Shown here: positions 4,828-11,610 of the stretch, piece after piece
Position numbering within the stretch: position 1 is the stretch's first letter
Layout of the letters: each line of letters starts with the position of its first letter
Assembly: GCF_029633965.1 (NCBI RefSeq)
Contig: NZ_CP091277.1
Coordinates: forward strand, 1,609,940 to 1,673,939
Source: Methanogenium sp. S4BF
GTDB taxonomy: Archaea; Halobacteriota; Methanomicrobia; Methanomicrobiales; Methanomicrobiaceae
Direction of reading: 5' to 3'
DNA: 64,000 nt
The notes under the pieces: generated by a model
The model's input: the letters and a program-made list of their open reading frames with translations, nothing else
Database searches by the model: none
Told to the model about the DNA's origin: nothing
Program-made: the position numbers and the translations under genes

Positions 4828-5946
4828 TCAGCACCCTTTTTTCCCTGCATTCACCACAGACTCAATAAGCCAGAGGACACCCTCTGTCCCGATGAGCGGG
4901 CGGTGGCAGAGCATGGAATGTTTGCGAATGGGAATCGTCATCTGCACAAAGGGTACATCCGGTGCAAGGGTCGCTTCGTACCGGGACCCGATGATCAGAT
5001 CCGGTTCACCTGCTGCTATCATCCGCTTCACGGTTCCCAGGTCCGGGGCCCAGGTGCATACCGAATCCTCCTGTGGTTGATTGCGGGCTCCTGCACTGCA
5101 GATCTCCGCGTCGAGACAGGTGGTGAGCAGGTCTGCTGCCATGTCAAGGTAGCCTGCGATGCCGAAGAGGGCGACCCGCGGCGGATCGTTCGCACGGAGA
5201 TAACGGTCACATGCCTTCACCACCAGTTCTTCCGTCTCCTCACAGCAGTCCATGACCGGAGCACAGTCCGCATCCGGCATCGCATCCTGGAGGACAGAAA
5301 AGGTCGTCTCAATGGCATCCAGACCGAGAAGTGACCCTGCCGGCCGCCCGATGCCGGAGGCCACATCCGGGAGGGCTGTCACCGTCATCTCTGCCGGCCT
5401 GAGGGCTGAGGCCAGAGTATCGCTGCAGTACCGGGCCGCAACCGGGATGCCCGCACGGGCGAGCAGACGCTCTGCCTCCATACGGTTGCCCACGGCAAAG
5501 GGATCCGGCGAGAGCAGTCCGTCGATGTTCACCCCGCCCCGTGTCGGGTCGGTCTCTGCCGGGAGGGCTGCCAGCGCCAGCCGGTAGCCATCCATCATGT
5601 CACCACAGTAGCCGGGGGCATCGATGATGATGGGGTCACAACCGGCGCAGTATGTCCTGAGGTCCTCACCGATGGTTGCAGGAACACAGGAGTTGATGAC
5701 CACAATCCTCTCGCTGAAGGGCAGAAGACCTTCTGTTACCTCCTGCAGACGGTCACCGGTGCCGAAGATAATTTCGTCCTCCACCAGATAGGTGCAGTTC
5801 ACCGGGTCGGGAATGACCGAGTCTGCGTAGAAGTAGCACGCCGACGCCCCGTGGATGATAACACCGGCTCCGTCCAGTCCGGCCATTGCGGCAGCGGCGC
5901 CGATCATCGCACAGGGCCAGATCGGATTGATGCATGGCTTAGCCAT
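4828..5946 (-). CDS. nitrogenase-like component 1 subunit (NifD/NifK family), subunit B
   Basis: 372-residue member of the NifD/NifK/CfbD/BchN/BchB superfamily, the catalytic component that accepts electrons from a NifH-type ATPase. Cys12 (IWPCAMIGA), Cys37 (IHGASAC) and Cys87 (INSCVPATIGED) sit where the three P-cluster ligands of NifD or NifK lie; Cys5 is extra. The C-terminal block IGSRYEATLAP...CHRPLIGTEGV is the usual third Rossmann domain. At 372 residues it is far shorter than nitrogenase subunits (about 450-520) and close to CfbD-like minimal forms. It overlaps the preceding subunit gene by 8 bases, so the two are translationally coupled and probably form a heteromer. Substrate unknown. 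Confidence 0.82.
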   Translation of the reverse strand: MAKPCINPIWPCAMIGAAAAMAGLDGAGVIIHGASACYFYADSVIPDPVNCTYLVEDEIIFGTGDRLQEVTEGLLPFSERIVVINSCVPATIGEDLRTYCAGCDPIIIDAPGYCGDMMDGYRLALAALPAETDPTRGGVNIDGLLSPDPFAVGNRMEAERLLARAGIPVAARYCSDTLASALRPAEMTVTALPDVASGIGRPAGSLLGLDAIETTFSVLQDAMPDADCAPVMDCCEETEELVVKACDRYLRANDPPRVALFGIAGYLDMAADLLTTCLDAEICSAGARNQPQEDSVCTWAPDLGTVKRMIAAGEPDLIIGSRYEATLAPDVPFVQMTIPIRKHSMLCHRPLIGTEGVLWLIESVVNAGKKGC

Positions 5947-6991
5947 CGATAAACCTCCGCCACTGCCGGAGCATCCGCCGCAGGCCGAGTGTTCCTACCG
6001 GCATACAGAAGGGAATGGGAATGACCGTTCCCTCCTCAGCGACCCTGATGCCCACGGCCTCTGCCACCTCGGCAAACATATCCATCTCTGCCGACTGGAA
6101 CCCGAATGAATCAAAGGTCACATACTCACCTGCGAGGTCTGAAAATTCATCCGCGAGTGCGGCCTGCCGCTCCTCTTCGGCATGGACGGCTTCAGTGCTG
6201 TCACGGCCGGTGAGACGGGCCGCATCACGGATGAACTGCAGGGTTGCCGTGAGACCGACCGGAAACTCCGGAAGAGAGGGGATGCCGGTGCAGGCATTAA
6301 AATGGCGCCCGAGAATGCCGCTGGTGTCCTCCCGGAAGAGAGTCAGCCCCGCATCCCCGAACCTTTCGATATCCGCCACCGTGATGTCACGCACATAGCG
6401 GATGTTCACCTCAAGTCCCAGCATGCCGAGGATACGGGAGACCTCCTGGAAATTATCCTCGGCCTCAAACTCGAGGTTTTTCTCACCGATGATATTTACC
6501 GTGCCCCGGTTCCGGCCCGCGGGTGAGGGAGACGGAATAAAAGAAGAGAGGGCAGTAAGCGTACTGGTATACCCATCCGTGAAGGTGCCGCCAAGAAAGC
6601 CGGAGCTGGGCACATAGATGACCGGGCAGTCCCACGGCTGGCTGCAGATGCCTGCCACATCATCCCCGATGGTCTCGGAGACACAGGTGCTTGCAACGAC
6701 CACCGCGGCCGGGTCCTCACCGCATACAGCCGTCAGGGCATCGTGGAGCGCATCCTCGCCGCCGAATATGATCTCATCCTCGCCAAGACCGGTTGAGACT
6801 ATTTCCGGGATGCGGAAGATATCATGTTCGGCAAGGGTGGTGTGCAGGAGGGAGGTATTGATATGGGTGCACCCGTCCGGGCCGTGGATCAGGGTCACTG
6901 CATCTGTCAGAAAGGCACTGACCGAGAGGACGCCCATGACCGTACATCCCTCAAACCGTGAGGTGCGACCGTGCAAGTTCTTCGAGTTCAT
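5939..6991 (-). CDS. nitrogenase-like component 1 subunit (NifD/NifK family), subunit A
   Basis: About 350 residues if started at the ATG at 6991, inside the end of the NifH-like gene. That start keeps Cys16 (RFEGCTVMG), the first of three P-cluster-type cysteines; the others are Cys41 (IHGPDGC) and Cys103 ([12 protein letters not shown]). The next in-frame ATG (6937) would lose Cys16, and the frame is open upstream to 7093, where conservation is lost. No strong Shine-Dalgarno is seen, consistent with coupling to the upstream gene. The body shows the three-domain component-1 pattern ([37 protein letters not shown]). It is clearly different from subunit B, so this is a two-subunit component 1. 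Confidence 0.8.
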
Positions 6992-7769
6992 GCATCTCGA
7001 GGGGGGTGGGGATGGTAAACGTGGTATTTTCCATAATCGTTCGGGCCAGCTGCCGGTACACCTCTGCCTGTTCTGACTCCGGCGCATACTCAATCACCGT
7101 ACGCTGGTTCACTTCAGCAATCTGGACAATATTGGCACGGGGAATATAGGCGACCATCCGTGAATTGACCCGTTCGGCAAATTCACGCACCAGTGCCTCC
7201 TCGCCGGGAATATTCTTCGCGTTGCAGATGACACCTGCCAGAGAGCAGACACTGCGTGTGCGCCGGGAAAGGCGTGCTATCGCCTTGCAGATGTTATTGG
7301 CCGCATAAAGCGACATGAACTCACCGGAGGTGACGAGGTATATCTCCTGTGCATATCCGTCACGCATCGGCATCGCAAACCCGCCGCAGACCACATCACC
7401 AAGGACATCATAGACGATGACATCACCGTAAAGGGCCTCCAGCCGCTGGAGCAGCTGAAATGTGGCGATGATCCCGCGGCCCGCACACCCGATGCCCGGT
7501 TCCGGTCCGCCTGCCTCAACACACCGGATACCCCCATACCCGGTGAACACCGCATCAGAGACCGCAATATTGGCATCACCGTGTTCACGGACAAGATCAA
7601 GGACGGTCGGAATCCATTCCCCCCACATCAGCATCCGGGTGCTGTCATGTTTCGGGTCACACCCGATCTGCATGACATCCAGCCCGCAGTCCGAGAGGGC
7701 TGCCGAGAGATTTGCCGAAGTGGTGGATTTGCCGATACCACCCTTCCCGTAGAGGGCGATCTGTTTCAT
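6951..7769 (-). CDS. NifH-like Fe-protein ATPase of a nitrogenase-like system
   Basis: 272-residue P-loop ATPase of the NifH/BchL/CfbC family, a homodimeric 4Fe-4S protein that passes electrons to a component-1 partner upon ATP hydrolysis. P-loop GKGGIGKST at 8-16, CDPKHDST at 37-44, and the two cluster ligands Cys95 (GIGCAGRG) and Cys128 ([10 protein letters not shown]) are all present. It is the first gene of a three-gene minus-strand operon with two component-1 subunits, so it presumably serves them. The ATG at 7769 is the only in-frame start (a TAG lies two codons upstream). CfbC of coenzyme F430 synthesis is the main alternative identity, but that enzyme works with a single CfbD partner. 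Confidence 0.88.
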
Positions 7770-8413: not shown

Positions 8414-9889
8414 TCACCAGTCAAACCCACGGATAAGGCCGATGAAGAAGACCATCACCGCCATCACCTCCAGCCGTCCCAGCCACATCTGGATGATGAG
8501 CACCAGTTTTGACCAGACCGTCAGGTCAGGTGTTACAAAGCCTGTGGAGATGCCGTTGTTGCAGGTTGCAGAGACCACATCGAAGATGACAAGGGTCGTA
8601 TCGATATCGGGCTGTTCAAAGTGCATGATGATGACAAGGGCGAAGAGAATCGGAATCAGGAAGAGAATAAAGGTGAGCATGTTGCGTGAAACAAGAAACT
8701 CTGCGTCTGCCCGCTGAAAGGTTTTGCCGTTGTATCGCAGGGGAATCATGGCCTTCGGACTGACAAACGACCGCCGGAACCAATACTTGATGCCTTTGAG
8801 CCCGATCATGACGCGGGAAAGTTTCACTCCTCCCGCTGTACTGCCGGACGACCCGCCGATGAAGACCAGCATGGTGAGAAAGAGCACAGATACCGGTTCC
8901 CATACCACCAGATCCACGGTCTGGAATCCGGTGGATGTGACCGCCGCAGATGCCATAAACAGACCGTTGATGACGGCAGACCATTGTTCCAGACCATTAA
9001 AAACGATCAGATCGCCCGTAATGATGACAAATCCCAGAAGAATCAGCAAAAAGAGCAGGATTGCCTGTTCATCATGAAACAGGCGGAATTCCCGTTTGCG
9101 GTACATCAGATAATATATCTTGAAGGGGAGCGCTCCCGCAATCATCACCGGAATAATCAGCAGTTCAAGGAGCCGGTTGTCATAGGATGGGATGCCCCCG
9201 CTGTGGATGGAAAATCCTCCGGTCGATATGGCGGTCATCGCAATATTCACGGCATCCCAGAGCGGCACACCGGAGCAGAGAATGAGGAGCACCCCTGCAA
9301 GGGTAAGGAAGAGATATATCAGCCACATCTGTGCTCCCTGCTCCACCACACTCGGCATGAAGGCATCACTGCGCCCCTCCATGCGTTCGGAACTGTAGAG
9401 GCGGAGACGGGAGACGGACGAGCGGTTCAGGAGGGCAACGGTGAATGCCACAATCCCGATGCCCCCGAACCATTCCATCAGGGTTCGCCAGAAAATAAGG
9501 GTCTCGGGCAGGGCATCCACATCACGGGCCATCGTCATCCCGGTATCCGTCCACCCGGACATTGCCTCAAAAAATCCGTCAATGTAGGGCATTCCTGCAC
9601 CAAAGACAAAGGGAAGCGCCCCCACAAGAGCACAGATCAGCCAGATGGCGGCCACGGAGAAGAGCGACATGGAGAGACGGGGCTCCCGCTCCGTTGCCGG
9701 AAGACGGATAAGAACCGTCCCGATACAGAAAAGGACCACCGGTACGGATGCCATCGGGAGGAGCATATCAAACTCCCTGAATATGAGGGCAACTGCAAGC
9801 GGAATACAGGTACCGGCGCTGATATACCGGAGAATAGTGCCGATATCCGTTGTCAGCGTCAGGTACTGATGAAGGCGGTCCATACGCAT
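8414..9889 (-). CDS. trkH: TrkH-type potassium uptake channel
   Basis: About 491-residue membrane protein of the TrkH/KtrB superfamily, the pore subunit of K+ uptake systems. Four pore-loop segments can be seen: SGWTDTGMTMARDVDALP, TAISTGGFSIHSGG, SAAVTSTGFQTVDL and SATCNNGISTGFVTPD, each with the glycine-containing filter typical of the family. Between them lies EWFGGIGIVAFTVALL, another family hallmark. The partner TrkA is not adjacent; a TrkA-N domain occurs in the DHH protein at 35.5-36.9 kb but that is a different architecture. Start uncertain among GTG 9895, ATG 9889 and ATG 9883; no convincing Shine-Dalgarno. Confidence 0.9.
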   Translation of the reverse strand: MRMDRLHQYLTLTTDIGTILRYISAGTCIPLAVALIFREFDMLLPMASVPVVLFCIGTVLIRLPATEREPRLSMSLFSVAAIWLICALVGALPFVFGAGMPYIDGFFEAMSGWTDTGMTMARDVDALPETLIFWRTLMEWFGGIGIVAFTVALLNRSSVSRLRLYSSERMEGRSDAFMPSVVEQGAQMWLIYLFLTLAGVLLILCSGVPLWDAVNIAMTAISTGGFSIHSGGIPSYDNRLLELLIIPVMIAGALPFKIYYLMYRKREFRLFHDEQAILLFLLILLGFVIITGDLIVFNGLEQWSAVINGLFMASAAVTSTGFQTVDLVVWEPVSVLFLTMLVFIGGSSGSTAGGVKLSRVMIGLKGIKYWFRRSFVSPKAMIPLRYNGKTFQRADAEFLVSRNMLTFILFLIPILFALVIIMHFEQPDIDTTLVIFDVVSATCNNGISTGFVTPDLTVWSKLVLIIQMWLGRLEVMAVMVFFIGLIRGFDW

Positions 9890-10007
9890 GTACACATTGC
9901 AGGAGGGCAGGTATTATCCTTTTGTTACGGGACGGAGAGCACAATACTGCCGTTATCGCAGAATACAGGCCAAAATACGGGATAAAATTGGGTGAATGAG
10001 GTCAGAT

Positions 10008-10409
10008 TCAGCGGTTGACCCAGAGGTTATGGACATTGCAGCACTCAAACGCCTTCACATCCGTATCCGGGCATGGGAAGAAGGCTTCCGGTGCATCACC
10101 GGGTTTCAGGTAATGGACCATGAAATCATCACCGGCCTGTACACCAATCCACATGATGTAATGCTCTTCTGCCATCGGGTGGGGTGTTGAACCGACCGTG
10201 ACTTTGATACCTCCTTCCACCTTCTCAACCATGGGCACATGCTTCTCTTTGGCAAAGTCTGCCGTCTGTTCAGAGAGCATTGTCATCTCATTTCCCGAAC
10301 AGCTAACCGAGAGTGCATCTGCCGATGGTGCCTTGCACATGCCGGGATCCATTATCATGACCGTGCCGCTGCATCCGGGGCACTTAAAAAAAACAGGGTT
10401 TTTCTCCAT
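10008..10409 (-). CDS. superoxide reductase (desulfoferrodoxin-like)
   Basis: 133-residue cytoplasmic enzyme that reduces superoxide to peroxide. The Fe(His)4Cys centre is visible: His57 (EKHVPMVE), His77 (TPHPM), His83 (EEHYIMW), Cys124 and His127 (CNVHNLW). An N-terminal desulforedoxin-like segment has Cys10 and Cys13, but the usual second CC pair is Ser36-Cys37, so the FeS4 site lacks one normal ligand (Cys25 could substitute). The ATG at 10409 follows GAGGTGA at good spacing, better than the TTG one codon before. It lies 16 bases after fprA, in one operon with rubredoxin, the likely electron donor. Confidence 0.88.
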   Translation of the reverse strand: MEKNPVFFKCPGCSGTVMIMDPGMCKAPSADALSVSCSGNEMTMLSEQTADFAKEKHVPMVEKVEGGIKVTVGSTPHPMAEEHYIMWIGVQAGDDFMVHYLKPGDAPEAFFPCPDTDVKAFECCNVHNLWVNR

Positions 10410-10425
10410 CAAAATTCACCTCTTT

Positions 10426-11610
10426 TCAGACGAGGTGATTATCCTGATGGTGTTTATAGATTTCGTCTGCAAGATTTATCACCGCGACGAGCTCCTGCTC
10501 ACCGGGTTTTCCTTTGATATATACCGGTTCAAGCATCTCAGCGGTGAGTTTCGGCATCATGTCACCCAGAGACTGCACCGTCTTTCCTCCCCAGCCAAAT
10601 GAACCGATGACTCCCAGATACCGTGCCTTCGGTTTGAGAATATTGGCGAGGAACGCAATATGTGCCGCCTTGGGGTGTGGCCCGAAATGGACCGTCGGTG
10701 AGCCGATGACAATGGTCGTGGCGTCGATGAGGTCCATTGCAATGGTGCCCGGTGAGGCGGTGCCAAGGTCATAGGGGCGCACCTCAATGCCCCGCTGCAT
10801 CAGTGCATCCACCAGCCGTTCCACCATCCACCGTGTGCTGGCGTGCATGGATACGAAGGGGATGACGACGAGATTCTTTCCTTCCTCTGATGACCAGTCG
10901 CGGTACAGGGAGAGAATCCAGGAAGGATTGTTGTGCACCGGCCCGTGGCTTGGTGCGATGATGGCCGGGGAGAGTGACTCCACAGCATCGATATATTCAC
11001 GGATCTTTGACCGGAAGGGCTGCATGATAATGGCATAGTAGCGCATTGCAGCCTCATGCAGCCGGCATGAGTTATCCGAGAAGAGTGGTGATGCGGCAAG
11101 GTGGGCGCCAAAGAGGTCACAGGAGAAGAGGATGCGGTCTTCCGGCACCCAGGTCACCATCGTCTCCGGCCAGTGCACCCAGGGCATCGGGTAGAAGACA
11201 AGGGTCTTGTCCCCAAGAGAGATTGAGTCTCTGTCTTCTACGACCAGAATGCGTTCCTCATCGATTAACACCATCGAACAGAGCAGCTCTTTTCCCTTCT
11301 CCGTCGTGACGACTTTTGCCATGGGAAAGAGTTCAAGCAGTAGGGGGAGTGAACCGGAGTGGTCCTGTTCTGCATGATTTGCCACGATGTAGTCCACGGC
11401 ATCGACCTTCGCCCGGATGAGATTTGTGACATACTCCTCATCAAACTCTGCTTCCACGGTGTCGATGAGGGCTGTCTTCTCGCTCCCCCGGACGACATAG
11501 GCGTTGTATGTCGTCCCGTCCGGGAGGTCCATCAAGTCATCGAATGCCACCCGGTGCCAGTCAATCACACCCACTGCCTCGATGCCGGGAAGAATTTCAC
11601 GCACGACCAT
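10426..11610 (-). CDS. fprA: F420H2 oxidase, flavodiiron protein FprA
   Basis: 394-residue flavodiiron protein. In methanogens this family reduces O2 to water using F420H2. The N-terminal metallo-beta-lactamase domain carries the diiron ligands His79, Glu81, Asp83 and His84 (NHAEQDHSGS), with further ligands in SCDLFGAH and PSHGPVH. The C-terminal flavodoxin domain starts near residue 250 (NLVVIPFVSMHASTR) for FMN. The ATG at 11610 lies three bases after the rubredoxin stop, and GAGGTGA within the end of that gene serves as ribosome site, so the two are coupled. Role in oxygen detoxification follows from family and operon. Confidence 0.93.
   Translation of the reverse strand: MVVREILPGIEAVGVIDWHRVAFDDLMDLPDGTTYNAYVVRGSEKTALIDTVEAEFDEEYVTNLIRAKVDAVDYIVANHAEQDHSGSLPLLLELFPMAKVVTTEKGKELLCSMVLIDEERILVVEDRDSISLGDKTLVFYPMPWVHWPETMVTWVPEDRILFSCDLFGAHLAASPLFSDNSCRLHEAAMRYYAIIMQPFRSKIREYIDAVESLSPAIIAPSHGPVHNNPSWILSLYRDWSSEEGKNLVVIPFVSMHASTRWMVERLVDALMQRGIEVRPYDLGTASPGTIAMDLIDATTIVIGSPTVHFGPHPKAAHIAFLANILKPKARYLGVIGSFGWGGKTVQSLGDMMPKLTAEMLEPVYIKGKPGEQELVAVINLADEIYKHHQDNHLV

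Follow-up and report, generated by a model that had tools for sequence, protein, structure and literature searches.

What does a nitrogenase-like gene trio do in the methanogen Methanogenium sp. S4BF, and does it own the electron donor that it encodes? The window considered here is a stretch of 64,000 nucleotides from the S4BF genome, which consists of one contig of 2,513,916 bases. Within it, inspection of the open reading frames shows three overlapping genes on the minus strand, which we call H, D and K. The closest named relatives of K, at 81-87% identity, include Methanogenium strains.

Gene organization and conservation

H (6951-7769, minus strand) encodes a CfbC/NifH-type ATP-dependent reductase of 272 residues, with a Walker motif and two cysteines, Cys95 and Cys128, that are expected to hold the bridging [4Fe-4S] cluster. 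D (5939-6991, minus strand) encodes a component-1 subunit of the NifD/NifE side with Cys16, Cys41 and Cys103; it has 350 residues when read from its ATG, and the reading frame list also offers an alternative upstream TTG. K (4828-5946, minus strand) encodes a component-1 subunit of the NifK/NifN side, with 372 residues and Cys12, Cys37 and Cys87. The Pfam assignments are far beyond chance for all three proteins, namely Fer4_NifH for H (355 bits) and PF00148 (Oxidored_nitro) for D (194 bits) and K (110 bits). A preliminary description had already recognized a NifH-type ATPase with Cys95 and Cys128, and both the reading frame check and the Fer4_NifH score bear this out.

The reading frames of H and D overlap by 41 bp (6951-6991, minus strand) and those of D and K by 8 bp (5939-5946, minus strand), which confirms the coupling by overlaps noted earlier. 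Most orthologous loci keep the H-D overlap, at 35 or 20 bp in some, and the D-K overlap is kept in most loci outside one family. In family f4 (Methanoculleus-like; loci L058, L059 and L060) K lies 2-15 kb from D on the opposite strand, and yet it is retained. Compared with near relatives, the H, D and K genes have omega values of about 0.03-0.17, i.e. they are under purifying selection. Given overlaps that recur in most loci and these omega values, H, D and K are functional genes and are probably translationally coupled.

Probable assignment of H to F430 synthesis

The preliminary description regarded the trio as complete in itself and equipped with a private Fe protein, a view that finds no support here. 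With 420.6 bits, H exceeds the cut-off of 402 bits of the NCBIfam model NF033200 (F430_CfbC) and does not reach that of nifH. The CfbC model may include Methanomicrobiales sequences in its building, so that passing it is not independent proof. The genes cfbA-cfbE-cfbD-cfbB are clustered near 0.84 Mb, 775 kb from H/D/K, and each is confirmed above its NCBIfam cut-off, but that cluster contains no cfbC. H is the sole CfbC candidate of the genome, since the only other NifH-class protein above 200 bits is the NifH of the nif operon. Hence, when cfbC and cfbD were sought elsewhere in the genome, as had been proposed, cfbD was found and a second cfbC was not. The complete nif set lies at 1.811-1.819 Mb, 195 kb from H/D/K, and nifB is also present in the genome; the earlier remark that nifB, nifE and nifN are missing nearby thus holds for the locus but not for the genome as a whole.

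The same pattern extends through the order. A gene above the CfbC cut-off occurs in 53 of 56 genomes, and that gene is H. Of the sampled genomes that carry D/K, 26 encode CfbD, D and K but no NifH-type protein above 200 bits other than H. In two further genomes, G047 and G171, H is the sole NifH-type protein and CfbD the sole PF00148 protein, and therefore F430 must be made with H there. By elimination, H is thus the predicted functional CfbC.

Its ancestry is a different matter. In the tree, H and its orthologs from genomes lacking D/K form one clade (100/99), and H and the CfbC proteins encoded beside CfbD (Methanosarcinales-type and other orders) fall into separate 100% clades on an unresolved backbone. 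Forcing H and the CfbC of Methanosarcinales-type genomes into a single clade costs 10.2 lnL and comes close to rejection (AU p 0.064). H may therefore be either an old CfbC or a former D/K reductase that took over as CfbC and displaced the original one.

D and K as a separate pair

D and K are mutually paralogous (hhalign E 4.5e-24). In the tree D, K and CfbD each form a 100/100 clade; a weak root branch separates D, together with NifD/NifE, from K, together with NifK/NifN. None of the NCBIfam equivalog models is passed by either protein. The closest NCBIfam sequence match of D is NifE (98.6 bits). The DPOR/COR equivalogs (BchNB, BchYZ) give at most 78 bits against a cut-off of 490, and the D and K clades stand apart from BchN and BchB, which form long branches. 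Together these results uphold the earlier proposal of a separate heteromeric pair, as D and K are distinct from CfbD, NifDK/EN and BchNB in the tree. They fit the general Nfl plan, in which a NifH-type donor and two paralogous PF00148 subunits are encoded in one operon.

That D and K are simply a diverged CfbD is ruled out by the separate CfbD clade and by profile comparison. Against the CfbD model TIGR03282 (cut-off 268.4 bits) D and K reach 42.6 and 27.5 bits, and hhalign aligns either of them with CfbD over the first 119-125 columns, roughly the N-terminal third. The suspicion that the locus might be CfbC together with CfbD is consequently half right: H is taken to be CfbC, but neither D nor K is CfbD, which is encoded elsewhere.

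Several genera encode an additional PF00148 protein that occurs singly, belongs to the NifK side and has about 390 residues (L076:3930-5117, L078:3858-5129; also L077, L079, L080, L081 and L085). The tree keeps it apart from D and K, and in genomes G004 and G019 it lies 2-3 kb from cfbD. Genome G017 carries three further nitrogenase-like D/K-type pairs and a NifH-type gene within 20 kb (L070:815-19362).

Conserved cysteines and predicted structure

The cysteines placed at P-cluster positions in the preliminary description are confirmed there. D Cys16, Cys41 and Cys103 align with those of NifD and are invariant in 30 orthologues, and K Cys12, Cys37 and Cys87 align with those of NifK and are invariant in 28. 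Two additional invariant cysteines had been overlooked, namely D Cys116, which is common to NifE, and K Cys5.

The ligands of FeMo-co are Cys275 and His442 in NifD numbering, and that of the L-cluster is Cys250 in NifE numbering. In the alignment with NifD and NifE, D has a gap at the Cys275/Cys250 column and lacks some 90 residues of domain III, the His442 region among them. The short length of the subunits, noticed from the start, is real, and for D it has a specific cause, since most of domain III has been lost together with the cofactor-ligand region. Judging from these deletions, D cannot bind FeMo-co or an L-cluster of the canonical kind through the known ligands.

The AlphaFold2 monomer models are of good quality, with pLDDT values of 87 (D) and 90 (K). 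In Foldseek searches the best match of the D model was methylthio-alkane reductase (TM 0.73), along with NifEN and DPOR, all at about 0.7; the K model matched NifK (TM 0.81-0.84), NifN and BchB, at about 0.8.

Distribution and natural deletions

A close D is found in about 178 of 199 Methanomicrobiales genomes (E up to about 1e-59). The genomes without one are mostly fragmentary or belong to genus g35, in addition to G047 and G178. Genus g35 is presumably Methanospirillum-type. Across 393 genomes of the phylum, relatives of K score at most 110 bits outside Methanomicrobiales versus at least 390 bits inside. Other phyla were covered by a contig scan, in which the 80 loci listed out of 134 are all from Methanomicrobiales or euryarchaeal MAGs. 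As far as searched, the D and K clades are confined to Methanomicrobiales, where they are found both with and without nif genes.

Methanospirillum and one relative are missing D/K and still have H in place. G047 and three g35 genomes carry H at the syntenic site, in the order FprA - TrkH or kinase - H - 140-aa protein, and a search of these loci for D/K remnants found no trace. Locus L064 has the same gene order with K and D inserted between H and the 140-aa protein. D/K is thus dispensable and H is not, and the retention of H where D/K has been lost is what would be expected if H also serves CfbD.

The conserved neighbours of H/D/K were surveyed for a substrate clue and none names a substrate; nothing recurs besides TrkH, FprA and a kinase. 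In our window, TrkH, a desulfoferrodoxin-like protein and an FprA-type flavodiiron protein are encoded at 8414-11610, and they stand beside H in many genomes, including those lacking D/K; this recurrence is probably positional. In Methanocorpusculum-type genomes (L062:3428-7642, also L063) genes for an oligopeptide/nickel-type ABC transporter and for a UbiE-like methyltransferase immediately precede H-D-K in the same orientation, which in this lineage hints at a small molecule that is metal-bound or exported.

Proposed mechanism

We propose, with a probability of about one half, that H is a CfbC with two catalytic partners, CfbD and a heteromeric D/K reductase without an active-site cluster, the latter probably acting on a tetrapyrrole-like substrate. 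H would be the ATP-dependent [4Fe-4S] reductase of F430 synthesis, partnering both the homodimeric CfbD encoded elsewhere and D/K. If they follow the pattern of their superfamily, D and K would assemble into a (DK)2 complex, in which D Cys16/41/103 and K Cys12/37/87 would hold a P-cluster-like Fe-S centre where the two subunits meet. ATP-loaded H would dock on this complex and pass electrons to the Fe-S centre, which would in turn reduce the substrate. Because D is without cofactor ligands, the substrate would be bound directly in the space that FeMo-co occupies in nitrogenase, a mode closer to that of DPOR and CfbD than to that of nitrogenase. The assembly of the complex, the kind of cluster, the passage of electrons from H to D/K and the class of substrate are all inferred. 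A cyclic tetrapyrrole, or another large conjugated molecule of methanogen cofactor metabolism, seems the most plausible class, because the donor belongs to a tetrapyrrole pathway and the site would, like those of DPOR and CfbD, be without a cofactor. Since D/K overlaps the only cfbC gene, one donor, H, probably drives two different reductions.

More tentatively, D/K may represent an unrecognized, order-wide ATP-dependent reductase that combines a full six-cysteine P-cluster-type site with no cofactor site, shares its Fe protein (CfbC) with F430 synthesis and performs an undescribed reduction in cofactor metabolism. H would then possibly be the original D/K reductase that displaced the ancestral CfbC.

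Alternative functions

Among the alternatives, an accessory role in F430 synthesis itself survives best, and we still regard it as unlikely. D/K would here aid the reduction by CfbC/CfbD, either in one electron step or in the repair of a wrongly reduced precursor, which would explain why it is encoded with cfbC. The overlap of D/K with cfbC across the order, the donor common to D/K and CfbD, and the loss of cofactor ligands in D, as in CfbD, are all consistent with such a role. Nonetheless, CfbC/CfbD of other orders work without D/K, Methanospirillum-type genomes make F430 without it, and D/K are no close relatives of CfbD, given the short stretch that hhalign aligns.

It is improbable that D/K replaces CbiJ, the cobalt-precorrin-6A reductase of the anaerobic cobalamin pathway. 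The idea arises from a real gap: CbiJ (PF02571) was found in none of 58 sampled genomes and CbiD in 57 of them, so another precorrin-6A reductase must exist in Methanomicrobiales, and the reaction concerned, a reduction of a ring double bond, resembles that of DPOR. It is weakened because genomes lacking D/K show the same pattern, with CbiD and without CbiJ, and would need another enzyme in any case. The control Methanosarcina acetivorans likewise has CbiD and no CbiJ.

Just as doubtful is the reduction of a sulfur compound or sulfonate, as is done by methylthio-alkane reductase or by the NflHDK that acts on isethionate in Rhodobacter. Sulfur metabolism is known to include nitrogenase-like enzymes (passages of PMC12552129 and PMC11423573), and the top Foldseek match of the D model is of this kind; the TM values of NifEN, DPOR and nitrogenase are similar, however. 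According to the passages of PMC12552129, the [Fe8S9C] cofactor of methylthio-alkane reductase needs a cysteine homologous to that of nitrogenase, and this position is deleted in D. Moreover, no sulfur-metabolism gene is found among the conserved neighbours.

A NifEN-like scaffold or maturase for the [8Fe-9S-C] clusters of the MCR activation complex, where such clusters occur according to passages of PMC12176620, has slightly poorer prospects still. The proximity of D to NifE in sequence, the shared Cys116 and the universal presence of nifB in the sampled genomes could be read in its favour, but the position of the NifE cluster ligand Cys250 is missing from D, and other methanogen orders as well as Methanospirillum activate MCR without D/K. 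The presence of nifB is also independent of D/K, and on this account a link between D/K and NifB or the L-cluster was rejected. A substitute for a RACo/RamA-type corrinoid activator was likewise discarded, as the presence of the activator is not complementary to D/K. Finally, a second nitrogenase is very improbable, as its one argument, membership of the superfamily, faces the absence of both FeMo-co ligand positions from D, a normal nif set elsewhere in the genome and the occurrence of D/K in many genomes without nif.

Significance and comparison with known systems

If the shared-donor reading is correct, nearly a whole methanogen order would gain an unassigned nitrogenase-like reaction, linked through overlapping genes to the donor that serves F430 synthesis, and one Fe protein is predicted to serve two unrelated reductases. 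Methanospirillum and its relative would be natural knock-outs, in which the donor is retained and the D/K pair is missing. In D/K, ligands of the P-cluster type are present where no cofactor site is left, and this also bears on the evolution of nitrogenase clusters. CfbD, Nfl and the group IV/VI clades are described in passages of PMC3464626 (a survey of nitrogenase-like proteins), PMC12552129 (methylthio-alkane reductase) and PMC12176620 (MCR activation). Those passages of text do not describe the order-wide D/K pair or its sharing of CfbC, and the pair may sit unnamed in a published tree.

Compared with NifEN and NifDK, D/K keeps the division into a NifD/E-side and a NifK/N-side subunit and all six cysteines at P-cluster positions, three per subunit, with Cys116 as a further likeness to NifE; it differs in the deleted cofactor-ligand Cys/His positions, the largely vanished domain III and the lack of nif context. 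Methylthio-alkane reductase (MarHDK) and group IV Nfl are also heteromeric Nfl systems with P-cluster ligands, and MarHDK is the top structural match for D, but the ligands of its [Fe8S9C] cofactor, as given in passages of PMC12552129, are absent from D. DPOR (BchL/BchNB) is heteromeric, has a NifH-type donor and lacks an active-site heterometal cluster, as D/K would. Unlike D/K, it has a reduced cysteine set and an Asp ligand (passages of PMC3464626); its sequence relation is remote and its tree branches are separate. CfbC/CfbD differs in that CfbD is a single gene product forming a homodimer and encoded 775 kb away, while D/K consists of two different subunits with six cysteines at P-cluster positions, of which just the N-terminal third is alignable to CfbD. 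The likeness to CfbC/CfbD lies in the donor, as H clears the CfbC cut-off and is the sole CfbC candidate of the genome, and in the build of the partners, as D and K resemble CfbD in their short length (about 350-370 residues) and share with it a plan without an active-site cluster site.
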